64,000 nt of DNA from Linnemannia elongata (Eukaryota > Mortierellomycota > Mortierellomycetes > Mortierellales > Mortierellaceae). Below are positions 26,781 through 63,168 of the stretch, one piece after another. The translations under genes were made by a program, and so were the position numbers. A model generated the notes under the pieces. The model was not told where the DNA came from, ran no database searches, and saw nothing but the letters and a program-made list of their open reading frames with translations. The stretch's first letter is position 1, and each line of letters opens with the position of its first letter. The stretch spans positions 2,604,001-2,668,000 of the forward strand of contig JAXBDG010000003.1 in NCBI GenBank assembly GCA_036320915.1, read 5' to 3'.

Positions 26781-29700
26781 ATGGCCGACTTTCCTTCCGT
26801 GCACACAGCAATCAGTGGAGAGCTTCCAGGGTTAAGCACACCGACAACATCATTGTCTCTCGAGGCCAGTTTTCAACAATATGCACAACTCCAGGATTCA
26901 CCCTCAGTCGAAGACATGCTGCACAGGCTGAGGCGACTGAGGATCGAGGAGTACACCCATGACGTTTTCATTGCCCCTATGGCCAAACCTAACCTACAGG
27001 CTCCGGGTAACATGTTGTTCTCCCTCATGGACAAGGTCGAGGAGTTCCTGGCAGGCGACGGTCAAGTTATGCTGATTATGGGTGACTCTGGAGCCGGCAA
27101 ATCGACATTCAATCGACACCTGGAGCACCGGCTCTGGCAAGACTATCAGCCTGGAGGACGCATCCCACTCTTCATCAACTTACCAGCTCTCGACCGACCG
27201 GAAAAGGAACTGGTTGTAGAACAGTTGAAGACGGCAGACTTTACAGAGGGGCATATCTGGGATCTAAAACAGCATCATCAGCGTCACCAGCTCTTACTAA
27301 TCTGTGATGGCTATGATGAGAGCCAGCTCACCTCCAACTTGCACACCACCAACCTCTTCAATCGACCTGGGCAGTGGGACGTCAAGCTGCTCGTTACCTG
27401 CCGCACTCAGTATCTCGGTTCTGACTATCGCGATCGCTTTGCACCCAAGGCGACTGACCAATACCACCGCACTGCCAACGACCTCTTTCAGGAAGCTATC
27501 ATCGCCCCCTTCTCCAAAGAACAGATTGAGTTGTATGTCGAACGGTTCGTCCCACTCATGCCACGGACTTGGGTCAAGAAGGACTACATGAAAATGTTGG
27601 CAGCTATCCCCAACCTCATGGACCTGGTCAGAAATCCCTTTCTGTTGACTCTTGCTCTGGAGGCTCTTCCCAATGTTGTCCAGGGCAGGAGCAATCTCTC
27701 GAGGCTCAAGATCACCCGTGTTGGGCTCTACGACACATTCGTCCATAACTGGTTGGAGGCCAACAAGCGCCGCCTGCAGGACCAGACGCTGAAGGACAAA
27801 CGCCAAGCATTTGAGGATCTTCTAGTGGACGGGTTTGTGCAGAGCGGGATTGACTTTCAGAAAGATTTGGCGGAGGCGATCTTTCAGGAGCAGGACGGCC
27901 GACCTATCGTCGAATATTCCAACAGGCGTGAGAAGTCGTCGTGGAAAGCTCGCTTCTTTGGTTCTGAGCCTGAGAGGTATCTGCTCAGAGATGCCAGTTT
28001 GCTGAGTCGCACCGGCAACCAGTACCGCTTCATCCACCGATCTGTCTTGGAGTACTTTTTGTCTCGCGCCGTTTGGGACACCGCCATGGATGGTAACGAG
28101 TGTGCTCCGCATGTTTATTCAGAAGCTACTGGTGTATCTCTGCCTATCACCGATCATCCACTGTCCAAGAAAAGTCTTCTCCCAGAGCCGTCAGTCATCC
28201 AGTTTCTCGCCGAGCGCGTCCAAGTGCAGCCTATCTTCAAGCAGTACCTTCTCGCGTTCATTGAGCTTTCCAAGTCGGATCCTCAGGCTAGCATAGCTGC
28301 CGCCAATGCTATCACGATCCTGGTGAGAGCTGGGATACACTTCAACGGAGCTGACCTTCGAAAGATTCGCATCCCTGGAGCTGATCTCACAGCTGGGCAA
28401 TTCGACTCGGCGCAGTTGCAGGATTCCGACCTGACGGGAGTCAACTTCCTCAAGACTTGGATCCGACAGGCGGACTTCACCAGAGCCCGGATGGAAGAGA
28501 CACGGTTTGGAGAGCTGCCAAGTCTGCAGGAAGAGGGGGCAGTACTGACATGTGCATTTTCCACAGATGGAAGGTCTTTTGCAACGGGTCTTCTTAATGG
28601 TAACATTAGTATCTACGACACTACCGCATGGACAAGGATTCGGCTACTTCATAGTCGCAAACGGGATGTTCGGAGCCTTGCCTACTCAATCGCCGGCCTT
28701 CAAATGGTCTCCGGTCACGACGACGGCACGACGCGACTGTGGGACAGTGAGACGGACGCGACTGATCGTATTCTGAAGGAACATTCCAAGGAGGTGAGAG
28801 CTGTTGCGTTTTCACCCTCAGGCATGCAGTTCGCCTCAGCCAGCAAGGACATGTCAGTGAATCTATGGGACACCCGAACAAGAAACGTCATTTTTGTCAT
28901 AAAACATTCTGACTATGTCACCGGGATCGCCTATTCACCAGATGGGAACAACATTGTGTCCAGCAGCGAAGATGGAAAGATCCGAATGTTCGACACGCAG
29001 ACGGGACAACTTGTGTTGAGTTCGGGAGGGAGCGGCGAGGGTTACTGTTGCCTTGGGTATTCTCCTAACGGACAGTTGATCGTCTCGGGAGATGCAACCG
29101 GCAAGCTGCAACTCTGGGAGGCGACCACCTTGATACCGAGGATCAAATGGACGGGACATTCTGGAGCAGTGACAAGCATCGAGTTTTCGCCGAACGGGCA
29201 ATGGATTGTGTCTGGCAGTGACGACACAACAGTCAAGTTGTGGGATGGATATGCAGCCACGCTTGTCTCTATATTTACAGGTCACACCAATGGTATCACC
29301 AGTGTTGCATTTTCCCCAGACGGCTCACTCATTGCTTCAGGAAGCTGGGATAATACTGTACGGCTCTGGGAGGTGAACTCGGTTGGATTTGGTCTCGACA
29401 TGGAGAGCGCCTTCGACTCTCAGCCAAGTGTAGCCTATTCTCCTGATGGACGGTTTCTCATATCTGGCAGTCGTGGTGGAGCTGTACAGCAACATGATGC
29501 GGAGAGTGGCGAGATTGATCTTGTTATTTGCAGCCAAGAATTCGCAGCCAATTCTGTCGCTTATTCATCGGACGGTCGTCGGATTGCCGTGGGTGATTTA
29601 GGAGGTGACGTCACGTTGTGGAGCGCTCACACCGGCGCCCTTGAGAACACTCTTCGCGGCCATACTGAGGATGTGAGAGCAGTTGCGTTCTCACCATGTG

Positions 29701-30620
29701 GTAAATGGATTGCTTCCAGCAGTGATGACCGGACGGTGCGACTCTGGGATGCTCGATCAGGCACGTCTATTCAGGTCATCTCCGGTCGCCACATCTATTC
29801 TGTTCAATGTTTGTCGTTTTCGTCCAGCGGTGCTGAGATTGCATTTGGAGACACCTATGGAACGGTGCAAATCTGGGATGTGACAGCCGGGAAGTGCAAG
29901 ATGGAGTGGTTTGGGGGTGGAGGCGCCTTTGAAATCTGCTTTGTGAGGTACTTACCAAGGAGTCATCAGGCTGTTTCCTGCCACGGTGACACAGGTGCTC
30001 GTTTGTGGGATGAAAAGGGCCGACAGTTCCGAGTCATTTTGCAGCATAGTAGCATTGTCATCCATCACTTGGCATTCTCGAGTTGCGGTCAATGGGTAGC
30101 ATGTGTTCAAGTTGACACGGTTTACCTGTGGAGAAGCCCTCAGGAGGAGCGACCGCAGGACTGGGAGTACGTGCTGGCCTTCGACGGTTGCTCAGGGAGG
30201 ATTCAGGAGATTGTCTGGAGGCCCAACAAGTTGGAATTTGCTACCGCTGATGAGGGTGGATCCACTCGTGTATGGAGGGTTGTGGAGGAGTCCGGCAGGG
30301 TGCGGGTCCAGCTAGTATGGGGCTCTGGAAGAATTGCTCTTGTTGCCTCAGGATCGCTCCTTGACGATACCATTGGTCTTGGCGCGTTCAACCGGAACTT
30401 GCTGAAGAAGCTTGTTGTTGACGAAGGAGGCTTCTTTCAATCGGATGATGACAGCTCAAGAAGCTTCCAAGTCGGAGGTGAAGTTGAGGAGCTCCAATGT
30501 CTCCACTCCGACTATGAGAGCGAAGGTTCGTATTCGTCGGCCAGTTCTCGTGGTCGCTCACCATTGCTGGTTCCGGTGGAGCCTGATAGCGATTATTACT
30601 TCTCGGACAACGAGCAATAG
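26781..30620 (+). CDS. NACHT-pentapeptide-WD40 NOD-like receptor, copy 1
   Basis: Intronless, 1279 residues. After a ~75-residue N-terminus without a known effector domain comes a NACHT-type P-loop ATPase: Walker A GDSGAGKST at 101-109, Walker B LLLICDGYDE at 171-180, and sensor LLVTCRTQYL near 205. A helical region follows (FIHRSVLEYFLSR), then pentapeptide-like repeats (~520-575: NGADL, PGADL, QDSDL, RQADF). A WD40 array occupies ~588-1170, with many SPDG...SGS...LWD units. The acidic tail ends SDYYFSDNEQ. In fungi such proteins are thought to act as NLR-type sensors of non-self in which WD40 repeats recognise and NACHT oligomerises. The ligand here is unknown. The stretch 27564-28448 matches copy 2 base for base as far as I can compare by eye. 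Its N-terminal ~45 residues differ from copies 2 and 3. Confidence 0.9.
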   Translation: MADFPSVHTAISGELPGLSTPTTSLSLEASFQQYAQLQDSPSVEDMLHRLRRLRIEEYTHDVFIAPMAKPNLQAPGNMLFSLMDKVEEFLAGDGQVMLIMGDSGAGKSTFNRHLEHRLWQDYQPGGRIPLFINLPALDRPEKELVVEQLKTADFTEGHIWDLKQHHQRHQLLLICDGYDESQLTSNLHTTNLFNRPGQWDVKLLVTCRTQYLGSDYRDRFAPKATDQYHRTANDLFQEAIIAPFSKEQIELYVERFVPLMPRTWVKKDYMKMLAAIPNLMDLVRNPFLLTLALEALPNVVQGRSNLSRLKITRVGLYDTFVHNWLEANKRRLQDQTLKDKRQAFEDLLVDGFVQSGIDFQKDLAEAIFQEQDGRPIVEYSNRREKSSWKARFFGSEPERYLLRDASLLSRTGNQYRFIHRSVLEYFLSRAVWDTAMDGNECAPHVYSEATGVSLPITDHPLSKKSLLPEPSVIQFLAERVQVQPIFKQYLLAFIELSKSDPQASIAAANAITILVRAGIHFNGADLRKIRIPGADLTAGQFDSAQLQDSDLTGVNFLKTWIRQADFTRARMEETRFGELPSLQEEGAVLTCAFSTDGRSFATGLLNGNISIYDTTAWTRIRLLHSRKRDVRSLAYSIAGLQMVSGHDDGTTRLWDSETDATDRILKEHSKEVRAVAFSPSGMQFASASKDMSVNLWDTRTRNVIFVIKHSDYVTGIAYSPDGNNIVSSSEDGKIRMFDTQTGQLVLSSGGSGEGYCCLGYSPNGQLIVSGDATGKLQLWEATTLIPRIKWTGHSGAVTSIEFSPNGQWIVSGSDDTTVKLWDGYAATLVSIFTGHTNGITSVAFSPDGSLIASGSWDNTVRLWEVNSVGFGLDMESAFDSQPSVAYSPDGRFLISGSRGGAVQQHDAESGEIDLVICSQEFAANSVAYSSDGRRIAVGDLGGDVTLWSAHTGALENTLRGHTEDVRAVAFSPCGKWIASSSDDRTVRLWDARSGTSIQVISGRHIYSVQCLSFSSSGAEIAFGDTYGTVQIWDVTAGKCKMEWFGGGGAFEICFVRYLPRSHQAVSCHGDTGARLWDEKGRQFRVILQHSSIVIHHLAFSSCGQWVACVQVDTVYLWRSPQEERPQDWEYVLAFDGCSGRIQEIVWRPNKLEFATADEGGSTRVWRVVEESGRVRVQLVWGSGRIALVASGSLLDDTIGLGAFNRNLLKKLVVDEGGFFQSDDDSSRSFQVGGEVEELQCLHSDYESEGSYSSASSRGRSPLLVPVEPDSDYYFSDNEQ
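27564..28448 (+). repeat. gene-conversion-like identical tract (donor or recipient, copy 1)
   Basis: 885 bp that appear identical to 33581-34465 (constant offset 6017), bordered by ordinary paralogue divergence on both sides. It covers the end of the NACHT region through most of the pentapeptide repeats. Confidence 0.8.
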
Positions 30621-32746: not shown

Positions 32747-35700
32747 ATGTCGTCCCCACCTCTTCAAGGCAACCAACCGCTACAACCCGAAGGCAGCATG
32801 TCGTCTCCCTGTAAAGCACAGGAAGCAGCAGACAACCTGGAGCTGACAAATGACGGCAAGCGCTGTCTTTCGCAACTGGATCGTCCAGCAAAATTTGGAC
32901 GTGTCACAGCCGAGGCGGACGTTCCTGCTTCTACTGAATATGCGCTGCTTAGACTGAAGACGAACAGACTTATCGAGTACAAGCAGCCTGTCTACATCTC
33001 CCCAATGGCCAAGCCCAACCTAAAAGCACCAGACAACAGCGTCCTTCCTCTTATGGACATGATCGAGGGCTTTCTGGCGGACGACAGTCAAGTAATGCTG
33101 GTTCTGGGTGATTCAGGAGCAGGAAAATCGACTTTCAACCGACATCTGGAAAACAAACGCTGGATGAACTACGAGGCTGGGGGTTGTATCCCGCTCTTCA
33201 TCAACCTCCCAGCTCTCAAACAACCAAATGAGGATCTTATTGCAAAGCAATTGAGGACCGTCGGCTTCTTGGAGGAACAAATATGGTATCTCAGACTACA
33301 CCGCCAGCTCCTGTTGATCTGCGACGGCTACGACGAAAGCCAACTCACCTCGAACATACATACAACCAATTTTCTCAATCGACCTGGGCATTGGGACGTC
33401 AAGTTGCTCGTTACCTGCCGCACTCAGTACCTCGGTCCGGACTATCGTGATCGCTTCGCACCCAAGGCAACCGGACAGTATCACCGCACTGCCAACGACC
33501 TCTTCCGGGAAGCCGTCATCGCTCCCTTCTCCAAGGAACAGATCGAGATGTATGTCGAACAGTTCGTCCCACTCATACCGCGGACTTGGGTCAAGAAGGA
33601 CTACATGAAAATGTTGGCAGCTATCCCCAACCTCATGGACCTGGTCAGAAATCCCTTTCTGTTGACTCTTGCTCTGGAGGCTCTTCCCAATGTTGTCCAG
33701 GGCAGGAGCAATCTCTCGAGGCTCAAGATCACCCGTGTTGGGCTCTACGACACATTCGTCCATAACTGGTTGGAGGCCAACAAGCGCCGCCTGCAGGACC
33801 AGACGCTGAAGGACAAACGCCAAGCATTTGAGGATCTTCTAGTGGACGGGTTTGTGCAGAGCGGGATTGACTTTCAGAAAGATTTGGCGGAGGCGATCTT
33901 TCAGGAGCAGGACGGCCGACCTATCGTCGAATATTCCAACAGGCGTGAGAAGTCGTCGTGGAAAGCTCGCTTCTTTGGTTCTGAGCCTGAGAGGTATCTG
34001 CTCAGAGATGCCAGTTTGCTGAGTCGCACCGGCAACCAGTACCGCTTCATCCACCGATCTGTCTTGGAGTACTTTTTGTCTCGCGCCGTTTGGGACACCG
34101 CCATGGATGGTAACGAGTGTGCTCCGCATGTTTATTCAGAAGCTACTGGTGTATCTCTGCCTATCACCGATCATCCACTGTCCAAGAAAAGTCTTCTCCC
34201 AGAGCCGTCAGTCATCCAGTTTCTCGCCGAGCGCGTCCAAGTGCAGCCTATCTTCAAGCAGTACCTTCTCGCGTTCATTGAGCTTTCCAAGTCGGATCCT
34301 CAGGCTAGCATAGCTGCCGCCAATGCTATCACGATCCTGGTGAGAGCTGGGATACACTTCAACGGAGCTGACCTTCGAAAGATTCGCATCCCTGGAGCTG
34401 ATCTCACAGCTGGGCAATTCGACTCGGCGCAGTTGCAGGATTCCGACCTGACGGGAGTCAACTTCACCAAGGCTTGGATCCGACAGGCGGACTTCACCAG
34501 AGCCCGGATGGAGGAGACACGGTTTGGAGAGCTGCGGAGTTTGCAGGAAGAGAGGGCGATACTGTCATGTGCATTTTCCCCAGATGGGAAGTCTTTTGCT
34601 GTGGGTCTAAAGATTGGCGGAATCACAATCTATGACACAACCACCTGGACAAAGATTCGGCTACTTCGTAGTCATGAATCGGATGTTCAAAGCCTCGCCT
34701 ACTCAAACATTTCAACAACCGGCCTTCCACTTCTCTCCAGCGGTCCCTACGGTACGGTGCGACTGTGGGACGGTAGGACAGACGCGACTGATATTGTTCT
34801 GAAGGGACATTCCCACCAGGTGAGCGCTATTGTGTTCTCGCCCTCTGGCAAGCAATTCGCATCAGCCAGCCGTGAAGGGTTAGTGAACCTGTGGGATGCT
34901 CAAACCGGAACCGTCACCATTGTTACAAAAGACCCTTCCAAATCAGTCACCAGCCTCGCCTTTTCGCATGAAAGGCCCAACATTGTGTCCACCAGCCTCG
35001 CCTATTCGCCTGACGGGAGCAACATTGTGTCCAGCAGCGAAGATGGAAAGATCCGAGTATTCGACACACTGACGGGACAACTTGTGCTGAGTTCTGGAAC
35101 GAGTGACTTTGGTTACTGTTGCCTTGGGTATTCTCCTGACGGGCACTCGATCGTTTCGGGTAATGCCGCCGGCAAACTGCAACTCTGGGAGGCGACCACC
35201 ATAATGCCGAGAATCAAATGGACTGGACATTCTAGAGCGACGACAAGCGTCCAGTTTTCGCCAAACGGGCAATGGATTGTGTCTGGCAGTGACGATAAAT
35301 TGGTCAAGTTGTGGGATGGGTGTGCAGGCACACTTATCTCTGTATTCGCAGGTCACTCCAACGGCGTCACCAGTGTTATATTTTCCCCGGACGGTTCACT
35401 CATTGCTTCGGCGGGTTTGGATCGGACTGTGCGACTCTGGGAGGTTAACTCGGCTGGGTTTGGTCTCGACATAGATGGCGCCTTCGATCCCAAGACAAGT
35501 GCGGCGTATTCTCCTGACGGGAGGTTTCTCATCTCAGGCAGTCGCACTGGAGTGATGCAGCAGTATGGCGCGGATAATGGAGAAGTTGGGCTTGTTGTTC
35601 GCCGCGAAGGGTTCCAGTTCAACTCGGTCGTGTACTCGTCGGATGGTCATCAAATTTGCGTTGGTGGTTCGGGAGGTGATGTCACTCTGTGGAGCGCTCA

Positions 35701-36796
35701 TACCGGCGCCCTTGAGAACACTATTCACGGCCATACTGGGGATGTGAGAGCAGTTGCGTTCTCGCCATGTGGCCGATGGATTGCTTCGAGCGGTGATGAC
35801 CGGACGGTGCGACTTTGGGATGCTCGATCACGCACCTCTATTCGGGTCCTCTCCGAGAGCTACGTCTATATCGTTCGATCTTTATCGTTTTCGTCCAGCG
35901 GTACAGAGATTGCATTTGGAGGCAAATATGGAACGGTTCAAGTCTGGGATGTGACGACCGGGAATTGCAAGATGGAAATCTGGGGAAACATCTCTCGGAA
36001 CTGCTTTGTGAGGTATGTACCGAGGAGTTTTCGCGTCATTTCCTGTCACAATGAAACGGGTGCTCAATTGTGGGATGAAAAGGTACGACGTCCCCGAGTC
36101 ATTTTGCAGCACAATCGTATTGTCATCCAGCACTTTGCATTCTCGAGTTGTGGTCGATGGATAGCAAGTGTTCATGACGACACGGTTCACCTGTGGAGAA
36201 GCCCTCAGGAGGAGAGACCACAGGACTGGCAGTATGTGCTGGCCGTCGAGGGATGCGTAGGGGTGATTGGGGAGGTTGTCTGGAGGCCTAGCAAGTTGGA
36301 ATTTGCCACCGCCGACGAGGGTGGATCCACTCGTGTGTGGAGGGTTGTGGAGAGGCTCGACAAGGTACTAGTCCAGATGATGTGGGGTTCTGGAGGAAGT
36401 GTTCTTGTTGCCTCGGGATCGCTCCTTGACAATGCCATTGGTCTTGACACGATCAACCAGAATCTGCTGGAGCAGCCCGTTGTGAGGCGTGCAGTTGGTG
36501 TTAACAGGTTCGACGGGAACCTGCTGGAGCAGCCCCTTGTAGACGGTCCGTTCATACGTGTACCGAGCATTGAGTCATTCATATTTTCATCGAACGACGA
36601 TGCATTCTTATTTTCAACGAACGACGAAATCGTAAGACGATTCCAAGTCGAAGACGATGTTGAAAATCTTCAATTTCTCCCGTCCGACCATGAGAGCGAG
36701 AGTTCGTTTTCGTCAACCAGTTCTCGTGGTCGCTCTCCATTGCAGGTTCTGATGGAACCTGACAGCGATTATTACTTCTCAGACGACGAGCAATAG
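32747..36796 (+). CDS. NACHT-pentapeptide-WD40 NOD-like receptor, copy 2
   Basis: Intronless, 1349 residues, intact. The N-terminus (MSSPPLQGNQPLQPEG) is shared with copy 3, not with copy 1. Walker A GDSGAGKST is at ~121-129, Walker B LLLICDGYDE at ~188-197, then the NACHT helical region, pentapeptide-like repeats and a WD40 array from ~605 to ~1200. It is 70 residues longer than copy 1, partly through a 42-bp in-frame tandem duplication in the WD40 array (34949-35032, SLAFS.../SLAYS...). Short repeats in the tail also contribute (NLLEQPVV/NLLEQPLV and FIFSSNDD/FLFSTNDE). The tail ends SDYYFSDDEQ. The role is presumed NLR-type sensing. The intact frame suggests it is functional. The segment 33581-34465 is shared with copy 1. 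Confidence 0.9.
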   Translation: MSSPPLQGNQPLQPEGSMSSPCKAQEAADNLELTNDGKRCLSQLDRPAKFGRVTAEADVPASTEYALLRLKTNRLIEYKQPVYISPMAKPNLKAPDNSVLPLMDMIEGFLADDSQVMLVLGDSGAGKSTFNRHLENKRWMNYEAGGCIPLFINLPALKQPNEDLIAKQLRTVGFLEEQIWYLRLHRQLLLICDGYDESQLTSNIHTTNFLNRPGHWDVKLLVTCRTQYLGPDYRDRFAPKATGQYHRTANDLFREAVIAPFSKEQIEMYVEQFVPLIPRTWVKKDYMKMLAAIPNLMDLVRNPFLLTLALEALPNVVQGRSNLSRLKITRVGLYDTFVHNWLEANKRRLQDQTLKDKRQAFEDLLVDGFVQSGIDFQKDLAEAIFQEQDGRPIVEYSNRREKSSWKARFFGSEPERYLLRDASLLSRTGNQYRFIHRSVLEYFLSRAVWDTAMDGNECAPHVYSEATGVSLPITDHPLSKKSLLPEPSVIQFLAERVQVQPIFKQYLLAFIELSKSDPQASIAAANAITILVRAGIHFNGADLRKIRIPGADLTAGQFDSAQLQDSDLTGVNFTKAWIRQADFTRARMEETRFGELRSLQEERAILSCAFSPDGKSFAVGLKIGGITIYDTTTWTKIRLLRSHESDVQSLAYSNISTTGLPLLSSGPYGTVRLWDGRTDATDIVLKGHSHQVSAIVFSPSGKQFASASREGLVNLWDAQTGTVTIVTKDPSKSVTSLAFSHERPNIVSTSLAYSPDGSNIVSSSEDGKIRVFDTLTGQLVLSSGTSDFGYCCLGYSPDGHSIVSGNAAGKLQLWEATTIMPRIKWTGHSRATTSVQFSPNGQWIVSGSDDKLVKLWDGCAGTLISVFAGHSNGVTSVIFSPDGSLIASAGLDRTVRLWEVNSAGFGLDIDGAFDPKTSAAYSPDGRFLISGSRTGVMQQYGADNGEVGLVVRREGFQFNSVVYSSDGHQICVGGSGGDVTLWSAHTGALENTIHGHTGDVRAVAFSPCGRWIASSGDDRTVRLWDARSRTSIRVLSESYVYIVRSLSFSSSGTEIAFGGKYGTVQVWDVTTGNCKMEIWGNISRNCFVRYVPRSFRVISCHNETGAQLWDEKVRRPRVILQHNRIVIQHFAFSSCGRWIASVHDDTVHLWRSPQEERPQDWQYVLAVEGCVGVIGEVVWRPSKLEFATADEGGSTRVWRVVERLDKVLVQMMWGSGGSVLVASGSLLDNAIGLDTINQNLLEQPVVRRAVGVNRFDGNLLEQPLVDGPFIRVPSIESFIFSSNDDAFLFSTNDEIVRRFQVEDDVENLQFLPSDHESESSFSSTSSRGRSPLQVLMEPDSDYYFSDDEQ
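33581..34465 (+). repeat. gene-conversion-like identical tract (copy 2)
   Basis: Partner of 27564-28448. The first differences outside are A/G at 27563/33580 and C/A at 28449/34466. Confidence 0.8.
34949..35032 (+). repeat. 42-bp tandem duplication inside the WD40 array
   Basis: Two 42-bp units encoding TSLAFSHERPNIVS and TSLAYSPDGSNIVS. Copies 1 and 3 have one unit at this place. Confidence 0.8.
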
Positions 36797-45374: not shown

Positions 45375-46370
45375 ATGCACAAATCCATGGGTCCCACCGC
45401 CCTCAGGAGACTGATGACCGAGTACCGCGAACTCACCCTTCACGCCCCCGAGGGTATTACCGCTGGTAAATACTCATCTCACGCCCATCATGACACGTCC
45501 CAGGGGTTGAAGGGCTAATAAGGGGCTTGTCATATCACAGCACAACCCTGTACTAATCGCCACCTTCGTCTATGACCCTTTATCTTATTCTAGGCCCTAC
45601 AACAGAGGAAAACTTTTTTGAGTGGGAAGCCCTCATCGAGTACGCTACTCTTTTATTTATCACATCAGCAACATCTGGAAAATGACCTAGAAGAGTGAAC
45701 AGGAAGAATTAACACTAGTCTGATAACGGTCATGATTCAATAGGGGACCTCAGGATACGCCATACGAGGGAGGCATCTTCCCCGCTACATTGACCTTCCC
45801 CAAGGACTACCCCCTCTCGCCTCCCGTCATGAAGTTCACTTGCGAGATGTTCCACCCTAACAGTACGTCTCCTTACCCCAGGAAGAACTTGTTGGCGTGT
45901 TCAAACGAAAGGAAGAAGGACCACGGTTCAGGAGATTATGTCGTTGTAACTCACCTCTTCGATGATTTATTTACTTCAATTACAATTTTGAAATAGTCTA
46001 CCAGGATGGCACGGTCTGTATTTCGATCCTTCACGCTCCAGGAGATGACCCTAACATGTACGAATCTAGTTCGGAGCGCTGGAGTCCTGTTCAGAGTGTC
46101 GAAAAGATCCTCCTCTCGGTCTTGAGCATGCTGGCCGAGCCCAATGACGAAAGTGGCGCCAACATCGAAGCATGCGTAAGTATTCCTTACAAGGCCGGAT
46201 TAGATTGAACTGATTTGCTCTTCCTGTTGTATATGTGATTGTCAATGCTAACATGTGTCTCTGGTGATTTTTTTTTTACGATATCGTGGTTGTAGAAAGT
46301 TTGGCGTTCAGACAGGAAGCACTTTGATGAGATTGTGCGGAGCACTGTCAGGAAAACCTTGGGCTTGTAA
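45375..46370 (+). CDS. UBC7: ubiquitin-conjugating enzyme E2, UBC7/UBE2G2 type
   Basis: Five exons of 91, 46, 119, 179 and 75 bp: 45375-45465, 45594-45639, 45744-45862, 45997-46175, 46296-46370. The product is 169 residues. The UBC fold is complete: HPN (83-85), catalytic Cys in DGTVCISIL (Cys93), and the long acidic loop typical of the UBC7 group ([11 protein letters not shown]...[13 protein letters not shown]). The C-terminal helix is [13 protein letters not shown]. In yeast, Ubc7 works with Cue1 and Hrd1/Doa10 on the ER membrane in ER-associated degradation. It is the first of three tandem UBC7-like genes, and the only one with a catalytic cysteine. Confidence 0.95.
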
Positions 46371-47235
46371 AAACGTCTGCAACAAAACAACCAACATCAG
46401 GATACAACCTAACGGAGGGTCGGGACTCTTTTTTCCGATAATAAATGACCGAGCGCTTTTACAGTAAACCACTATGTCGCTTTCTTGCATGTGGGAACGG
46501 GTCTACGTAGGGTGGACATACCCTGCCCTGTTGTGGAATACGAAGGCGAGGAAGTGTAGGGAGGGATAAATGACACATATATATACGGTAGATGAATGTG
46601 CTTTTGCTGGGTGGAGAAAGGCCCACGAATCGACGGCGCATGCTCCTGCCGCAACTCCAATTGGACCAAATCGAACAAAGAAAAAGAAGCAAAATACCGA
46701 ACTCCAACACATTCGGCGGCAGGCATGGAAGAAGGGTTTGTTTTGATGGGTGGGTGGGGAGGTCATGTCATCAAGAACAATGACAACCGTGCGAGCCCTT
46801 CCCCCTTGCCCTCCGTGTCAACACTGCATGTTTGTTGTACTGTACTGTGCCCCTATCACTGTCCCTTTCACCTGAAAGAGTGATAGAGGGATAGTACAGC
46901 ACACGTCAAAATGATCTGAAGGGAAGCAAAAAAAAAGGAAGAAGCCTTGATGTTGACAGGGAGGAGAGAGGGGGAAGGGAGGACATTCTTCGTTACGCTG
47001 AGTGAGTGTCAACTCTTCGATATCTTTTATTTTTCTCCTAGTTGTTCTCGTCCTTGCTCCTTCCTTTCTTTTCCTTCCTTCTCTCGTTCTTTTCCCACTC
47101 CTCTCCTTTCATCTTTTTCATTGTCAACACCACCCTCTCGCCCTTTCAACATCCCCACAGAAGACTTCTACGCCCCTCGGACGACGCAGCACATCCCGCC
47201 CCAACCTACTACCAAAACACACAGAAACACACGAA
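46371..47235. other. spacer between UBC7 and its first variant
   Basis: 3' flank of UBC7 and a pyrimidine-rich leader (47030-47160) of the next gene. No other gene seen. Confidence 0.6.
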
Positions 47236-48505
47236 ATGGATACACCCAGGGAATCAAAGTCGTCGAAGCGGATCAAGGCTGAGTACGCTGAGCTCAAACT
47301 CCATCCTCACAACGGCATCCATGCCGGTAAGTTTGGCAGGACGTCTTCGAGCACGATATCCTCTCTCTCTCTCTCTCTGGTGAGGCGCTCTGACAATTAG
47401 GCCTGAACCCGGCGCTAACTAAGTGAGAGACTTGACTTTTTTCATTTCATAGGGCCGACTAACGAGAGTAACGTCTATGAGTGGAACGTCAACATCAAGT
47501 AAGGCCAACTCTCTTCTTCCGCTTTCTTTATGCTAGATTGGTTGTTGAAGAGCTCGGCGACTCTTCTTCCTTTTCATACCTCAAAAGCAGCCGTGAGAAA
47601 CAACTAAAGACGGCGGTCGCCCGCTTTGTCCACCCTCCAACAAATCGATTTCTTGTCCTCCTCCACAAACAATGTCAGTGCTCTCACTAATACATTCTTG
47701 CCCTTTTCATCGTGCTCCCTCTTCAATTTTTTTTACATTCGACAGTGGACCTCCCGGAACGGCATATGAAGGAGCAGTTCTGCCAGGAACCTTGACCTTC
47801 CCCAAGGACTATCCACTCCTCCCACCCAAGGTCAGACTTGTCGGCCAGGTCTTTCACCCCAATGGTAACATTCAGTAATCAGATCATAGGATGAAATGAA
47901 CTTGAGCGGAGAGGGGCGGAAGGAAAAAAAGGGAGTAGTGCAGATCATACAAAGCCCTACATCGAGAAAAAAAAAGGAACTGGTGACAACCAAGAAAAAA
48001 AAGGAAGCAAACAGTGCATAACACGAGGCTAGCGTGCATTCACTAACCACATCCCCTTTTGTCCTCTATTTTTCTCACTTTCTTTGCTTGCTTTTTGTCG
48101 CGACTTAACCACTTGAATGAACACTTACTCTGTGCTCTTAGTCGCGCCGGATGGAACGGTCGAGATCCCGATTCTGCATGTGACGGGTGACGACCCCAGC
48201 CGCCACGACTCGACACAGGAGAGGTGGAGCCCTGTCCAGAGTGTTGAGAAGATCCTGCTCGCGGTCCGTGGGATGTTTGTACATCCCTTTGATGAGAATA
48301 TTGCCAACCCGCAAGCTGATGTATGTGTCTTTTACGTGCTTTTTTTTGGAGTGCATTTATGCTTCAATACCATGGCAATTTTTCTCATTTCTAACGACTG
48401 TTTTCGTTTGGTTGTTTGCCTTACTTGTAGGAATTGTTGAAGGCGGACAAGAACAAGTTTGAGGAGACGGTCAAGCGATCGGTCAGTATGGTTGCTGCAT
48501 TGTAA
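47236..48505 (+). CDS. UBC7-derived E2 variant lacking the catalytic Cys (Glu in its place), variant A
   Basis: Five exons of exactly the same lengths as UBC7 (91/46/119/179/75 bp): 47236-47326, 47453-47498, 47746-47864, 48142-48320, 48431-48505. The product is 169 residues with no disrupting changes. The UBC fold markers remain: [18 protein letters not shown] (HPN at 83-85), and the acidic loop TGDDPSRHD...[13 protein letters not shown]. The position of Cys93 reads Glu (DGTVEIPIL), so it cannot form a ubiquitin thioester. It is a UEV-like protein that arose by tandem duplication. Known UEVs such as Mms2/UEV1 and Tsg101 act as E2 partners or ubiquitin binders. By analogy this one may modulate Ubc7 or its E3s, or bind ubiquitin (inference). 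Confidence 0.85.
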
Positions 48506-49204
48506 ATATATCCTCTCTTGGCAGCGATGGAGACCAACGCTCTCACGACTCTTCTTCGTAGCGAAGTGACCTTTCGTATCTTTTCAAGGAGAATAAAATC
48601 AAGGCTAGCGTCCAACAATGAGACAAACAAGGTTGGTGAAGGTGCAGCACCTTCATATTCATGAAGTCATTTGTGTCTTGCATTCAAGTTGTGGGTCAAC
48701 CAAGGAAGTATCACCCGGGTATCCATCCTCGGGTCAACCGAGGAAGCATTTATGCATGCCAGCCAAGCAACCATGCGTCACTGCACCCTCTCCTCAGGTA
48801 CATGGAGGCTGCTCTATTTCATGCCATGTCCAAACAAAACAGCCAGTTAGTAGGATAAAATAGCCTGCATGGTTTTTTTTATGTTGACCATGGTTCATCA
48901 TATCATGTGGATACATCTGCACTGTTAACCTTCCTTAGCGCCCATCGTTGCGTGGGTCAAGCAGCGTAAGGGGCGAGTGATCCATCCCTGTGCTACCATG
49001 GGCCTCTCAACATCTGTCACTTTTTTTTAGGAGTGTTTGGTTTAAAAGGTAGAAACGGGCCCTGAGCACTTTTTCCGTTTTCTTCTTCTTCTTCTTTCCT
49101 CTCCCTATACTTCAACAAACAATCAACTGCAACATCTCCACAACAACAAACCATCAACCAACCAACTCACCCAACACCCGCCCAACAAGGAAGACACGAA
49201 CAAA
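48506..49204. other. spacer between the E2 variants
   Basis: Contains a direct repeat of GGGTCAACC(A/G)AGGAAG at 48693 and 48731 and a pyrimidine-rich leader at 49070-49110. No gene seen. Confidence 0.6.
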
Positions 49205-50467
49205 ATGGATAACACCCCAGCCTACCAGAAGCTAGTCGCCGAGTTCCGTGAGCTGTCCCAACACGCTCCCCAGGGCGTCGCTGCCGGTAAACGCCAACAC
49301 CATAGTCGAGTGCAGGAGAGTTCGACACGAAGACCAGTGACAAGTCGAGAAGGGAGAAACGACTCATTGCTAACTTTTGTCATTGTCTTGACTTTCTGAA
49401 TGTAGGACCCATTAGCGAGGACAACTACTTTGAATGGGAGGCCGTCATCGAGTAAAGAGAACATTCCCATCCCCCTACACTCAACACACCAACTCCGCTA
49501 CCATACCCCACTTCATCTTGCGACCCTGCGCAAACGCTCACGAAAAAATGCCAGCGACCTCCCCTACATGCCCCCCTGCTTTTCCCACCTCTGCTTATGG
49601 CTCACGATGCTTTCTGTCGAAAGCACAAGCAGAAAAAAAAATACTCACACGCCCAATTGGTCCTCTAACTCCTCCTTTTCTACACGTTTGCTTATGGGAA
49701 ATTTGCGCTGCGAATAATAATAGGGGTCCTGAGGGTACGCCATACGAAGGAGGCATCTTCCCAGCTGTCCTGAGCTTCCCCCAGAACTACCCTGATGCCC
49801 CACCTTCCGTCAAGTTCAGCGGCCAGATGTTCCACCCCAACAGTAAGTCTTTTATTTTGAATACGGGACAGGTGCACGAAGATGACCGATTCTACTGTGT
49901 TTGGGAGTTTTTAAGCGAGTAGGAAGCAAAAGTACGAAAAGACCTCCTTACCTTATGCCCAGTGAGGTAGAGGAGGAGAAGCGCTGAGAGCACAAGGACA
50001 GAGAGGCGCTTGGCGAATGAAAGGCATTAGATGTCAGAAAACAAAACTTGTCAAAAGGCTTCTTTTCTAACCTTGTCATAATTCCCATCTTCGCATGATA
50101 GTCGACCAGGAAGGCAAGATGCAGATCCCGTTATTGCAGGCAGGAAAAGACGCGTGGTCGTCGACTGATGGTGTCGAGAAGGTCCTTAAGGAGGTTTCCT
50201 ATATCTTGACCCACCCCAACCTCGCCATTGCCGTCAACAAAGAAGCATCCGTACGGTCTTTGTTCTTCATATCTTGTTGCATTGTTTCTTCTGATGCTTT
50301 AATGTCAATGAGATCTTATGTGCCAAGAGAAGGGTTGAAATGAACTAACCATTTACTCTGCACGTTCTTTATTTTTGTGATTTTGTCGTTAGAATGTCTG
50401 GTCGACTGATAGAAAGCAATTCGATGCAGTGGTTCGCACCACTGTCAGGAACAACTTAGAGACGTAA
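49205..50467 (+). CDS. UBC7-derived E2 variant lacking the catalytic Cys (Gln in its place), variant B
   Basis: Five exons: 49205-49286, 49406-49451, 49724-49842, 50102-50250, 50393-50467. These are 82/46/119/149/75 bp, the same intron positions and phases as UBC7, and the product is 156 residues. FPQNYPDAPPSV and MFHPN (HPN 80-82) are kept. The catalytic position is Gln (EGKMQIPLL, residue 90), and the acidic UBC7 loop is shortened by 10 residues (QAGKDAWSSTDGVEKVL). The last exon stays close to UBC7 (VWSTDRKQFDAVVRTTVR). Loss of both the cysteine and most of the loop sets it apart from variant A, so the two have probably taken different roles. The open frame and clean splice sites argue against a pseudogene. 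Confidence 0.82.
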
Positions 50468-51444: not shown

Positions 51445-52792
<1,348 letters not shown>

Positions 52793-54957
52793 TTGTTCTG
52801 GTGGGGATTGATAAGGGGTTGGGTTGGTTGGGTAGAGTGTTTGAGGAACTGTGTGCGAAGGGTAAGGAAGAGGGAGAAGAGAAAAGAAGAAAAAAACCGA
52901 AAGAGAGAACGATAACGAACAACGTTTTATACCCATCGCGATTATGAGCAAGAAGGGAAGACGCATGTTCGATCCGATAAAATATTCTCACGTTCTGCTG
53001 CTGGTTACAACACACACAAAATGGATTGGATCCTCAACGAACGGAAAAACAAACAGAAGAGTCATCATTGCATGAGGGGAGGAAGGGGACGATAGCACTT
53101 CGGAAGGGGAAATAGAGAACAGTGCTCTGTTCTTGTTGAGATGGACAGTCGCCGCTTTCTTTTCTTTTCCTTCTCTTTTGATCCGGGATCGCTCATCTGC
53201 ATTAACGCACCCGACAAAAGAGGGAGTCATATCCAACGCCTGCTCTCTCTCTTTCATAGCCCTCTCTCTCGCTCACTCTTCACAGTTACACCCCCTTCGT
53301 CCATGTTTCATCACTTCCGGGTCCAATAAGTCCTAGATCTCCTTTGCCACTGGTCACAATGCGATCTGCTCCTTTCTCCTCAAGGCGGGCAGCATCGACT
53401 ACTCTTCGCTGCATAATGCGAGCTCAATGACATGTATTCGAAAGATAATTCACAGGGAGTGTGTCAGCACTCTAATCGAATTTTGGTTTTCTCGTTTCCT
53501 CTCACACATGGCAGAAAGATGAAAGAGCTGATCAATGCGTGTGAGCAGACACGCTCTACGCGTCTTTCACCACCTCCCTTCAAACTCTGCAAGCTTGCCA
53601 TCTGTCTTTTTTTTTTTACGCTACGGCGATGGTGTAGTTGTCTCAGTACCCTTTGATCTCTTTTGGCGTCGTTCAATCGCGATATGCAAGTTCTTGGGGA
53701 AAACCAAAGCCTTAATTGCTGGGGGAGAAGGGGAAGAGAGAAGGGGCGGCTCTGATCTGTGTCTACCGCAATTCCAATCCCCGACACAACAGACAGAAGA
53801 GAAAAGGGCGCATCAATCAAGCAACCAAGGCAGTTGACTAACAGTCGCCAGCCCGCGAACGCAGAAAGACCGAATGGGACCCTCGGAAGGGGCAGGCGTC
53901 GTTCTTCTTTTTCAAAGTCGCGCTCGACTTCCCTTGCATCTTTTCTCTCCCCGAACATGGCCGAGACCCATCTTCCTTCAAAAAAAAAAAAATGGCGGGC
54001 TTGGAAAAATAATGTAACTGTGCGTTGAGCATGCGATGGGATCTCGTACGGTGATAATTTTTTAAAATGACTGCTTCTCAAGAACGATCAACAAACAAAC
54101 AAAAAGTGCCAAAAGCATCGCTTGCCTCTTGCTTCTTTCTTTTCTTCTTTACCCTCTTCCCCCTCAACTTTCCCACCACCACCATTCCTTTCCCCTCTTT
54201 CACTCTATTTGCACTGTCAATGCTCCGATAAATCGTAAGTTCATACACCCCCCAATCCTATGGATACACATTCCATCGCTCCTTTTCTATATCTTACCCA
54301 CATTCCCACTCCTTCCTTTCAAATCCGCGCACGATGAAACACAGCTGGCACCAGTCAAAGGCGTTAACCAGTGATGACAAAAACAACAGAACTGTCAATA
54401 CGCAGAGAGTTCCTGACGCGACCCTTCACAAACATTTATTCATTTCTTTGGATACTTGTTTTTTAATCATGTTCTCCGAGATTTGTTTGACGTATCTCTT
54501 TGATCGTCAACTTCTCGACACCGCGTATAACCTCTTTGAGGAAGAAAAGTCTTTGAGCTGTTCCTAACCGCTTTTTGTTTTTTCTTTCTATCTCTCTTTT
54601 CTCAGGTTGCTGTAGGTTCTTATTGGTTGATCAAGTGTCTTTGTTTATGTTTGAATGGATATGATGAATAAAAAACGTTTTTCACAAAAAGTACCAGACC
54701 CCTTCTTTGGCCGTTATGTTTTGACGTGTTCAGGTTGAGCGTTCCCAATGAGTGTTGTTTTCCAATCAGTCTATCTGGCTGGCCTTTTTCTCTTGCAGAA
54801 TTTAGATGTAGTAATATGTGCCAGTGGGGAAGGCTATTTCCTGTAAAGCAAGGAAATAAACGTTATGTTGCCTTCGCCACTGATCACTGATTGCTGATCC
54901 CTCTCTTTTCGTTCCTGAAGTAAACCTTCAACGCCTCTTCGCCCCTCTCCACATTAC
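52793..54957. other. THI4 upstream region and gene-poor sequence
   Basis: THI4 promoter followed by about 2 kb without a recognised gene. The minus frame 54081-53464 (205 codons) is basic and low in known motifs. The 54334-54567 frame is short. Neither is supported by splice structure or family resemblance. Confidence 0.5.
52925..52931 (-). promoter_or_regulatory. TATA box of THI4
   Basis: TATAAAA on the minus strand, 133 bp before the THI4 start codon. Confidence 0.45.
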
Positions 54958-59290: not shown

Positions 59291-62200
59291 ATGGTATATC
59301 TTCCTATGATCACTAACAGGTACTCCATATCGTCCCCACCTCCTCAAGGCGACCAACCGCTACAACCCGGAGGCAGCATGTCGTCTCCATCTGCAGCACA
59401 GGAGGCAGCAGACAGCTATGAGCTGACTGACGACGGCAAGCGCAGTCTCTCGCAGCTTGACAGCCCAGCAAAATTCGGATGTGTCACAGTCGAGAGAGAT
59501 GATCCTGCTTTCATCGAAGATGCGCTGCTAAGATTGAAGACAAACAGACTTCTCGAGTACAACCAACCTGTTTACATTGCACCGATGGCCAAGCCTAACC
59601 TACAAGCATCAGCCAACAGCACGCTTCCTCTCATGGACAAGGTCGGCGCATTCCTAGCAGGCAACGGTCAGGTCATGCTGATTCTGGGCGACTCTGGAGC
59701 CGGCAAGTCAACTTTCAATCGATATCTGGAGCACCACCTGTGGACGAACTACGAGGCTGGAGACCGCATCCCGCTCTTCATCAACCTCCCAGCCCTCAAA
59801 CAACCCGATGAGGATCTTGTTGCAAAGCGACTGAGGACCATCGACTTTTCGGAGGAACAAATTTGGGATCTCAAACAACACCGCCAGCTCCTTTTGATCT
59901 GCGACGGCTACGACGAAAGCCAACTCACCGTCAACCTTCACACCACCAACCTCTTCAATCGACCTGGGCAGTGGGACGTCAAGTTGCTCGTTACTTGCCG
60001 CACCCAGTACCTCGGACCAGACTATCGCGATCGCTTCGCACCCAAGGCAACCGGCCAATATCACCGCACTGCCAACAATCTCTTTCAAGAAGCCATCATC
60101 GCCCCCTTCTCCAAAGAACAGATCGAGCTGTATGTCGAAAAGTTTGTCCCACTCATACCACGGACTTGGGTCAAGAAGGACTACATGGACAAGTTGACAA
60201 CCATCCCCAACCTCATGGACCTAGTGAGGAACCCATTTCTGTTGACTCTTGCTCTGGAGGCTCTTCCAAGTGTTGTCGAGGGTAGAAGCGATCTCTCGAG
60301 GCTCAAGATCACCCGCGCCGAGCTCTACGACAGATTCGTTGACCATTGGTTGGAGTCCAACAAGCGCCGCCTGCAAGAACAGACGCTCAGGGATAACAAA
60401 CATGAGGCGCTGGAGGATCTTCTTGCGGATGGGTTTGTGTATAATGGAATTGTCTTTCAGAAGGATCTGGCCGAGGCGAACTTTCAGGAGCAGGACGGCC
60501 GACCTATCGTTGAATACTCCAACAAACGGGAAAAATCGTCGTGGAAAGCTCGCTTCTTTAGTCCTGAACCTGAGAGATCCCTGCTCAGAGATGCCAGTTT
60601 GCTGAGTCGCACCGGCAATCAGTACCGCTTCATCCACCGATCTGTCTTAGAGTACTTTTTGTCTCGCACCGTTTGGGACACTGCCATGGATGATAATGAG
60701 TTTGCTCCGCATGTGTATGCAGATTCTACTGGTCTCTCTCTTCCTGTTGCCGATCATCCACTGTCCAGGAGAAGCCTTGTCCCGGAGCCGTCGATCATCC
60801 AGTTTCTCGCCGAGCGTGTCCAAAAGCAGCCCATCTTCAAGCAGTACCTTCTCGCGCTCATTGAGCTTTCCAAGTCGGATCCTCAGGCTAGCATGGCCGC
60901 AGCCAACGCCATCACGATCCTGGTGAGAGCGGGTGCACGCTTTAATGGAGCTGATCTTCGAGGCATCCGCATCCCAGGAGCCAATCTCACAGCTGGGCAA
61001 TTCGACTCGGCGCAGTTGCAGGATTCCGATCTAACAGGAGTCAACTTTACCAAGGCTTGGATTCGACAGGCGGACTTCACCAGAGCACGGATGGAGGAGA
61101 CACGGTTTAGAGAGCTGTCGGTTTGCAGGAAGAGAGGGCGGTACTGTCATGTGCATTTTCCCCAGATGGAAGTTCTTTTGCAACGGGTCTGATGAACGGC
61201 AACATCAGTATCTACGACACAACCACCTGGACAAGGATTCGGCTACGTCATGGTCACGAACTGGGAACTCAGAGCCTCACCTATTCAACAACCGGCCTTC
61301 GACTTCTCTCCGGCGGTTTCTGCGGTACGATGCGACTGTGGGACGGCGAGACAGGAGCGACTGATCGTGTTCTGAAGGGGCATTCCCAGGAGGTGAGCGC
61401 TGTTGCGTTTTCGCCCTCAGGCATACAGTTCGCCTCAGCCAGTGCGGACATGTCAATATGCCTATGGGACTCTCGAACAAGAACCGTCACCTTTGTCATA
61501 AACCATTTTGACGAGGTCACAGGGATCGCCTATTCACCAAACGGGAACAACATTGCATCTTGCTGCCTGGATGGAATAGTCCGAGCATTTGACACGCAGA
61601 CGGGCTTACTTGTTCTGAGCTCGAAAGGAAGCGACGCACGTCACTGCTGCCTTGGGTATTCCCCTAACGGACAGTCGATCGTCTCGGGCGATGCTGCCGG
61701 CAAGCTTCAGCTCTGGGAGGCGACCACCATGACCCCGAGGGTCAACTGGACAGGACATTCTGGAATAGTGACAAGCGTCCAGTTTTCGCCAAACGGGCAA
61801 TGGATCGTGTCTGGCAGTGATGACAAAATGATCAAGTTGTGGGATGGATATGCAGGAACACTTGTCTCTGTGCTCAGAGGTCACACCGACGGCATCACCA
61901 GTGTGACTTTTTCTCCGGACGGTTCACTCATAGCTTCAGCTGGTTCAGATCAGACAGTACGGCTCTGGGAGGTGAACTCGATTGGATTTGATCTCGACTT
62001 GGAGGGCGGTTTCGACTCCAAGCCAAGTGTAGCCTATTCTCCTGATGGACGGTTTCTCATCTCGGGCAGTCACAGTGGAGCTATACAGCAACATGACGCG
62101 GAGAGTGGCGACATTGGTCTTGTTATTCACCGCCAAGGCTTCCAAGCTAATTCTGTCGTTTATTCGTCGGACGGTCGTCAGATTGCGATGGGTGGTTCAG

Positions 62201-63168
62201 GAGGCGATGTCACGTTGTGGAGCGCTCACACCGGCGCCCTTGAGAATACTCTTCGCGGCCATGCTGGAGATGTGATAGCAGTTGCGTTCTCACCACGCGG
62301 CCAATGGATTGCTTCCAGCAGTTATGACTGGACGGTGCGACTTTGGGATGCTCGATCAGGCACGACTATTCAGGTCTTGTCTGACCTCATGATCGTTATA
62401 TCTTTGTCGATTTCGTCCAGTGGTACTGAGATTGCACTTGCAGGCAGGTTTGGAGAGTTGCATTTCTGGGATGTAACGACCGGGGAGTGCAAGTCGGAAG
62501 AAAACAAGTGGTACGCCTTAGGGCACTGCTCTGTGAAGTATTTACCAAGGAGTCTTTGTGCTGTTTCCTGCTGCGATGGAACAGCTCGTCAGTGGGAAGA
62601 AAATGGCCGACATTCCCGAATCATTTTGCAGCACAGGCGTATTGTCATCGACCACTTTGCATTCTCGAGTTGCGGTCAATGGATAGCAAGTGTTCAAGGT
62701 GACACGGTTCACCTGTGGAGAAGCCCTCTGGAGGAGAGACCACAGGACTGGAAGTATGTGCTGGCCGTCAAGGGATGCTTAAGGAGGATCGGGGGGATTG
62801 TCTGGAGGCCTAACAAGTTGGAATTTGCCACCGCCGATAAGGGCGGATCCATTCGTGTGTGGAGGGTTGTGGGGGAGTCCGGCAGAGTGCGGGTCCAGAT
62901 GGTGTGGGGTATTGGAGGAAATGGAGGAAACGCCCTTGTTGTCTGGGGATCGATTCTTAACGATGCCTTTGGTCTCAATACGTTCAACCGAAACCTGCTG
63001 GAGCAGCCCGTTATCGACGACGGATTCTTTTTTTCATCGGACAAGGAAAAGCTCCGACGTCTCCATTACGGCTATGAGAGCGATAGTTCGCTTTCGTCAA
63101 CCAAGTGTCGTGGTCGCTCTCCGTCTCGGCGCATATCTGGTTCCTACGAATCGGAAAGCAGTTATTAG
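59291..63168 (+). pseudogene. NACHT-pentapeptide-WD40 receptor, copy 3, broken
   Basis: Collinear with copy 2 but with several lesions. The ATG used in copy 2 reads ATA here (59328-59330), so translation would have to start at an upstream in-frame ATG (59291 or 59306) or a later one. A single base is missing near 61120 (copy 2 CTGCGGAGTTTGCAG, here CTGTCGGTTTGCAG). This separates the NACHT-pentapeptide half (59291-61192) from the WD40 half (61123-63168). A TAC-to-TAG change ends the protein about eight residues early (SSY-stop). Walker A GDSGAGKST and Walker B LLLICDGYDE are intact, and the WD40 half is an open 681 codons. The two halves might also be made separately. A sequencing error at the deletion is possible. 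Confidence 0.75.

Follow-up and report, generated by a model that had tools for sequence, protein, structure and literature searches.

Candidate pseudo-E2s of the UBC7 branch: two Cys-less paralogues in Linnemannia elongata that keep opposite faces of the E2 fold

The window, by which we mean the whole 64,000-nucleotide stretch of Linnemannia elongata DNA that was analysed, carries at 45375-50467 one normal UBC7 and, in tandem with it, two paralogues that we call A and B. Sequence comparison supports the view that A and B are intact, retained UBC7 paralogues that lack the catalytic Cys. What is new in this analysis is the complementary retention of E2 faces by the two proteins, in regions that were chosen post hoc. 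Because the Cys has been lost, both paralogues are kept in related fungi, and different docking halves are preserved, A and B are probably non-catalytic regulators, each with a different half of the Ubc7 docking surface.

All three genes lie on the forward strand. The active form, UBC7 (169 aa), spans 45375..46370 (exons 45375-45465, 45594-45639, 45744-45862, 45997-46175 and 46296-46370), matches Pfam UQ_con with E=4.8e-49, and has its catalytic Cys codon, TGT, read from the sequence at 46017-46019. Pseudo-E2 A (169 aa) occupies 47236..48505 (exons 47236-47326, 47453-47498, 47746-47864, 48142-48320 and 48431-48505), and the sequence and alignment place GAG, for Glu, at the catalytic position (48162..48164). 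Pseudo-E2 B (156 aa) follows at 49205..50467 (exons 49205-49286, 49406-49451, 49724-49842, 50102-50250 and 50393-50467), with a shortened loop and, by the same two lines of evidence, CAG, for Gln, at 50122..50124. The original prediction of adjacent genes with common intron positions and phases, open frames, good splice sites, an HPN motif throughout, and Glu or Gln in place of the Cys is borne out: exon lengths are 91/46/119/179/75 in UBC7 and in A and 82/46/119/149/75 in B, introns fall at identical places in phases 1, 2, 1 and 0, GT-AG borders 12/12 introns, the frames are open, and HPN is present in 3/3 window genes. Pairwise identities are 83/169 for UBC7 and A, 81/156 for UBC7 and B, and 57/156 for A and B. 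A genome search with A as query gave 16 exon matches, none outside the triplet above 49% identity, which is consistent with other E2s.

The same prediction had proposed looking for both variants in related fungi, where an absence of orthologues, together with neutral dN/dS, would have spoken for young pseudogenes, and orthologues are present in Mortierellaceae. Counting the window, there are seven A and seven B sequences, with 12 orthologue clusters beyond it (P0028-P0033 for A, n=6; P0001-P0006 for B, n=6), which rules out a private pseudogene or an assembly artefact. A is found in Linnemannia exigua, gamsii, schmuckeri and zychae and B in Linnemannia elongata, gamsii and zychae, so that five Linnemannia species have one or both; Haplosporangium gracile has both, and two Mortierella isolates have one each. 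Most of these proteins are named "Ubiquitin-conjugating enzyme E2 G2" or similar in the databases. The catalytic position is Glu in 7/7 A sequences and, in B, Gln in 6/7 and Arg in 1/7 (P0004). Among the other retrieved rows, Cys is present in 210/215, and the remaining five are fragments or misaligned (P0018, P0024, P0025 and P0145 have a gap, and P0027 has Ala in a 101-residue fragment). No Cys-less UBC7 was seen outside Mortierellaceae among the 226 proteins compared, drawn from all 27 of 27 homologues in the B search, the best 120 of 160 in the A search and the best 120 of 1587 in the search with an A+B profile; of the 12 clusters known for A and B, 11 stand at the head of these last 120. 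Twelve pattern matches in viral contigs included no relative, and RNA families gave no match at gathering thresholds. The predicted loss of 10 residues from the loop of B stands for the window gene and does not generalize: in its six orthologues, each of 160-163 aa, the acidic loop has 4-7 residues more than in window B, and the length of this loop thus varies between species.

Judged from their nearest relatives and shared gene structure, A and B belong to the Ubc7/UBE2G2 branch by descent. Both have the UBC/E2 fold by Pfam UQ_con (cut-off 27), with 122.5 bits and E=1.3e-35 over profile positions 1-139/140 for A and 129.4 bits and E=9.5e-38 over 2-138/140 for B, and neither has the catalytic Cys89 of an active Ubc7/UBE2G2. 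Beyond the orthologues, the informatively named best matches listed for A and B are E2 G2, UBC7 or ubiquitin-conjugating enzymes. A sequence search of the PDB with A and B returned Ubc7/UBE2G2 best; a structure search, using predicted models of orthologues, placed Ubc7/UBE2G2 at the top, tied with Ubc15 and, for B, also with UBE2G1. UBE2V is not among the best 50-60 PDB matches listed by sequence or structure, a list too short to be informative. In a tree of 39 of the 148 proteins, from which P0033 (H. gracile A, first exons missing) was left out, placing A and B beside Mortierellaceae UBC7 is allowed, short of proof (p-AU 0.51), and a joint A+B clade is neither rejected nor demonstrated (p-AU 0.54). 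Pro91 is common to A and B (14/14) and His129 is also shared; 4 of 24 rare states are shared against 2.07 expected (sd 1.37), which is not significant. The Cys may thus have been lost once or twice.

The two paralogues differ in the face that they keep. With front and back regions picked after inspection of the residue table, and a residue counted as kept when the group's residue is found in at least 5% of 210 UBC7s (a threshold varied over 2-10%, in a test whose front region also takes in 60-69), A keeps the RING/acceptor face and has lost much of the backside, and B keeps 16/17 conserved backside positions and has lost most of the RING/acceptor face; P0033 was excluded from the A counts before position 42. 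In A alone, the contrast of backside and front is not significant (Fisher p 0.21). Over 14 backside contacts from the literature, A keeps 7 and B 10, a weaker contrast than with the post hoc regions; the contacts missing from B are Tyr13, position 18, position 25 and Gly164, and A still has G23, E31 and V53. His94 and the long acidic loop, both Ubc7/UBE2G2 traits, are largely present in A (H94 7/7, D98 6/7, D99 6/7) and gone from B. B has also lost the RING contacts, for which we took F62, S94, P95 and A96 to be the corresponding residues of UbcH5b, and the donor-ubiquitin helix face. Of the donor-face residues in alpha-2, 2/3 are lost in A. Gene conversion was considered as the source of the UBC7-like backside of B and rejected, since synonymous sites there have diverged (exon 2 pS 0.74, 16 codons). 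In the original prediction, A and B formed a single kind of module; because the faces that they keep are opposite, two different jobs are likelier than one.

Retention under constraint is likewise supported by sequence. That A and B are relaxed, slowly decaying duplicates of little function is improbable, and would fit their evolving much faster than UBC7 (66% and 78% identity to L. zychae for A and B, 98% or 166/169 for UBC7), the H. gracile A record (P0033), which is short at 126 aa and altered, with HPK instead of HPN and Pro for Leu93, and the change of Gln to Arg and drift in loop length in B. Against decay, frames are open and splice sites intact despite about 50% protein identity to UBC7, dS of 1.1-2.2 and dN of 0.36-0.41, when 3-4% of random base changes would create a stop; in one frame of B that runs through intron 2 into exon 3, a second record (P0025) keeps 37/39 exon residues versus 35/97 in the intron frame, a comparison of one exon only; and the B and A locus tags are consecutive in L. 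zychae. Catalysis through Glu or Gln in place of Cys, or through another nucleophile, is very improbable: it has the conserved Glu of A in its favor and nothing else, the Gln or Arg of B is unable to form a thioester, and B has lost His94 and the donor face.

We favor, at somewhat less than an even chance, a reading in which A and B are specialised pseudo-E2s of the UBC7/ERAD branch that tune Ubc7, with RINGs or acceptor ubiquitin as the docking partner of A and Cue1 as that of B. An intron-bearing UBC7 would have been tandemly duplicated in the Linnemannia lineage to give A and B, which would have been retained as folded, non-catalytic E2 paralogues. A retains its RING-binding loops, His94 and the greater part of the acidic loop for acceptor ubiquitin; with its thioester Cys lost and with changes on the backside, by which Cue1 or gp78 hold Ubc7, it would most likely dock on the RINGs of ERAD ligases, on acceptor ubiquitin or on both, without donor ubiquitin. 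B, with most of the backside retained, would most likely occupy the U7BR helix of a Cue1-like protein. The genome has six CUE matches, and at one of these loci (L009) lies the gene of a Cue1-like protein whose E2-binding helix, gp78-like and U7BR-like, was identified by eye across an intron; a G2BR-type pattern scan over the six CUE loci gave no match because this helix is interrupted by the intron. Cue1 is described as shielding Ubc7 from degradation (PMC7432864, PMC8699718). Together, A and B would tune the amount of active Ubc7 at ER ligases, most simply through competition. Starting from the genes, their cross-species kin, the Cys loss, the predicted fold, the opposite faces and the Cue1-like gene, we infer the binding, the competition and the effect on ERAD. 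An unlikely alternative for A is a UEV-like co-activator: on dimeric E3/Cue1 platforms it would join charged Ubc7 and contribute the acceptor-ubiquitin side, as Mms2 does for Ubc13, the heterodimer building chains or shifting linkage. The acceptor features kept in A, the loss of its Cys and donor-face residues, and the gathering of several E2 active sites in UBE2G2 chain building on gp78, as described in PMC6624479, fit such a role; the altered loop of L. zychae A and the absence from B of all three acceptor features tested do not. We give a similarly small chance to both proteins having left ERAD to become E2-fold adaptors of another pathway, their divergence reflecting new partners. The very long tree stems of A and B, the appearance of Pro91 and His129 in both, and a B front that was rebuilt and afterwards frozen point that way, and the recognisable, opposite half of the known Ubc7 interfaces that each retains argues against it.

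Pseudo-E2s that tune Ubc7 would have partial counterparts among known proteins. A and B are like Ubc7/UBE2G2, the ERAD K48 E2, in sequence, fold and the introns common to the adjoining UBC7, and unlike it in the missing Cys and the changed backside of A or RING/acceptor face of B. The term UEV-type module, used in the original prediction, suits them as a works-like analogy, since Mms2/UBE2V and Tsg101 share the E2 fold without catalytic Cys (found in A and B with predicted models of orthologues), and not as a family assignment, since their nearest kin by sequence, among the matches listed, are UBC7s. UBE2V has lost the HPN motif that the window genes retain. COP10, a plant Cys-less E2 variant outside the Mms2 and Tsg101 families, is UBE2D-like, whereas A and B are UBC7-like. 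UEVs are described as E2-like proteins without catalysis that are able to bind ubiquitin (PMC7765195). In the laboratory, the Cys has been replaced in Ubc7 C89S (PMC7667886) and, by Glu, in UbcH5b C85E (PDB 9gls); these are engineered single changes, whereas A and B are natural, conserved and carry many further changes. No Cys-less Ubc7 paralogue appears in titles or abstract openings among the open-licence literature matches listed, which is a weak negative.

To our knowledge, inactive E2s are known from few families. If our preferred reading is true, a conserved ERAD-branch pair shows that pseudo-E2s can regulate ER quality control. A bolder and more doubtful version is that the ERAD E2 has been split in three, into active Ubc7, a "front-only" A for RING and acceptor ubiquitin and a "back-only" B for Cue1, which would make a dedicated, heritable rheostat of ER quality control and give the UBC7 branch its first UEV-like module. 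Our hypothesis of pseudo-E2 regulation can be put to a direct test with purified yeast ERAD parts. Because they keep opposite faces, A and B may serve as natural separation-of-function probes of RING binding, Cue1/gp78 backside binding and acceptor positioning in Ubc7 chain building.

The three genes lie side by side on the forward strand, with the active UBC7 (45375-46370) followed by its two Cys-less paralogues, A (47236-48505) and B (49205-50467). Intron positions and phases (1/2/1/0) are common to all three, GT-AG borders are present at 12 of 12 introns, and the codon at the catalytic position is TGT for UBC7, GAG (Glu) for A and CAG (Gln) for B. A and B are 49% and 52% identical to the window UBC7, respectively, and 37% identical to each other. 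The assembly comprises 51 Mb in 32 contigs, with the window taken from contig 23. Among the matches listed, the proteins closest to the triplet come from Linnemannia and its relatives in the Mortierellaceae; the window UBC7 is identical to its counterparts from L. zychae and Actinomortierella wolfii at 166 and 143 of 169 residues.

Loss of the catalytic Cys is not confined to this genome. B has six orthologue clusters (P0001-P0006; 15 member sequences, 76-94% identity) and A, among the matches listed, also has six (P0028-P0033; 15 member sequences, 66-93%), after which the matches listed are UBC7-like proteins at about 50%. The databases name these orthologues E2 G2 enzymes, E2/RWD-like or hypothetical proteins. 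The L. zychae locus tags of B and A are consecutive, and because its B, A and UBC7 records all lie on a contig of size 126831, we infer that this is one contig, as for the H. gracile A and B records (size 85400). Across 229 rows, made up of 226 retrieved proteins plus the window triplet, the catalytic position is Glu in all seven A sequences and Gln in six of seven B sequences, the other having Arg; Cys occupies it in 210 of the remaining 215, the exceptions being four gaps and an Ala in a 101-residue fragment poorly aligned in this stretch. Two residues further on, position 91 (UBE2G2 numbering) is Pro in all 14 A and B sequences and Ser in 208 of the 211 other rows with a letter there, which may reflect descent from one dead ancestor or convergence brought about by Cys loss. 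The B loop after the dead site (50122-50160) is Gln/Gly/Ala-rich and its length varies from species to species; in the window it is 4-7 residues shorter than in the six others.

In a 39-row tree, A and B each form one clade (support 100/100) with long stems (2.36 and 2.31) and short tips (0-0.22 in 12 of 13, the exception being L. zychae A at 0.69), a pattern that resembles a burst of change with constraint thereafter. Relative to UBC7, synonymous divergence is high: dS and dN are 2.22 and 0.41 for A and 1.10 and 0.36 for B. Calculated exon by exon, it argues against recent gene conversion. A single open frame runs through B intron 2 and exon 3, and in a second record, P0025, 37 of 39 exon residues are kept and only 35 of 97 intron-frame residues. 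Counting against constraint, comparison of the window with L. zychae shows far faster divergence in A and B (66% and 78% identity, respectively) than in UBC7 (98%). Counting against A being a real, constrained gene, the H. gracile A record (P0033) has 126 residues, lacks the N-terminal part, and carries HPK in place of HPN and Pro for Leu93 near the active site; it may be a mis-annotation or lineage-specific decay.

The two paralogues appear to have preserved opposite faces of the enzyme. We compared 90 positions (UBE2G2 numbering), each common to at least 80% of 210 UBC7s, scoring a residue as kept if present in at least 5% of them; A keeps 61 and B 53, and the sets differ. Of the 17 positions on the three backside strands, 9 survive in A and 16 in B; of the 26 in the front region 95-128 (acidic loop, second RING loop and alpha 2), 19 survive in A and 8 in B. 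Positions lost in one paralogue only divide 8:1 (A:B) in the back and 1:12 in the front (Fisher p 2.4e-4), regions that were named only after the residue table had been inspected. The back-front difference is significant within B (p 3.7e-5) but not within A (p 0.21) when each is taken by itself. In a circular-shift control at 27 settings, 1 to 5 of 82-107 shifts, the true position included, equalled or exceeded the observed value. The rebuilt B front is frozen, with 15 of 16 residues within 101-116 identical in all seven B sequences.

A partly independent test comes from the contacts named for the S. pombe Ubc7-U7BR structure in PMC6688661. K14, E38, L40, R160 and L163 are kept in B and lost in A, and Y13 and position 18 show the reverse; over all 14 contacts A keeps 7 and B 10, a weaker contrast than the region counts. 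According to the same paper, the conserved E2BR lysine reaches E38 in man, Asp38 being the budding yeast counterpart. On the front, E108, which forms a salt bridge to the gp78 RING (PMC7765195), is retained by A and missing from B. Both have Ser111, and His94, Asp98 and Asp99 each occur in at least six of seven A rows and in none of B. A also keeps, and B has lost, the positions that match the UbcH5b RING residues F62, P95 and A96.

Among 20 open frames scanned in the window, the closest neighbours that clearly belong to a family are not ERAD components: a metallophosphatase to the left of the triplet and, to the right, a Thi4 thiazole synthase gene (51880-52966, reverse strand) convergent with B. 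Large WD40-repeat frames lie on the forward strand to the left (26781-30620 and 32747-36796) and right (59291-63168); ahead of the last one lies a NACHT domain carrying pentapeptide repeats (59291-61192), which gives it an NLR-like architecture. Further away are pieces of SRP68 (6144-6899, reverse), the V-ATPase 116 kDa subunit (9715-11314, forward) and a sugar transporter (17900-19504, reverse).

Cys-less E2s are already known as a kind; none belonging to the UBC7 branch turned up among the matches listed in the open-licence literature. In yeast, Cue1 acts through the backside of Ubc7 to recruit, stabilise and activate it, and the RINGs of Hrd1 and Doa10 make use of the enzyme (PMC7432864 and PMC7667886). 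The same genome carries a Cue1-like gene (L009, G000:C30:396551-399658) with a U7BR-like helix, identical to human gp78 G2BR at 13 of 27 residues and to AUP1 at 10 of 24. If A works as a front-only protein, it could meet RINGs and acceptor ubiquitin without bringing a donor, and B, if back-only, could fill Cue1 without reaching a RING. We propose that the simplest consequence would be competition, which would determine how much working Ubc7 is available. A bolder alternative is that a Ubc7-A pair might act like Ubc13-Mms2.
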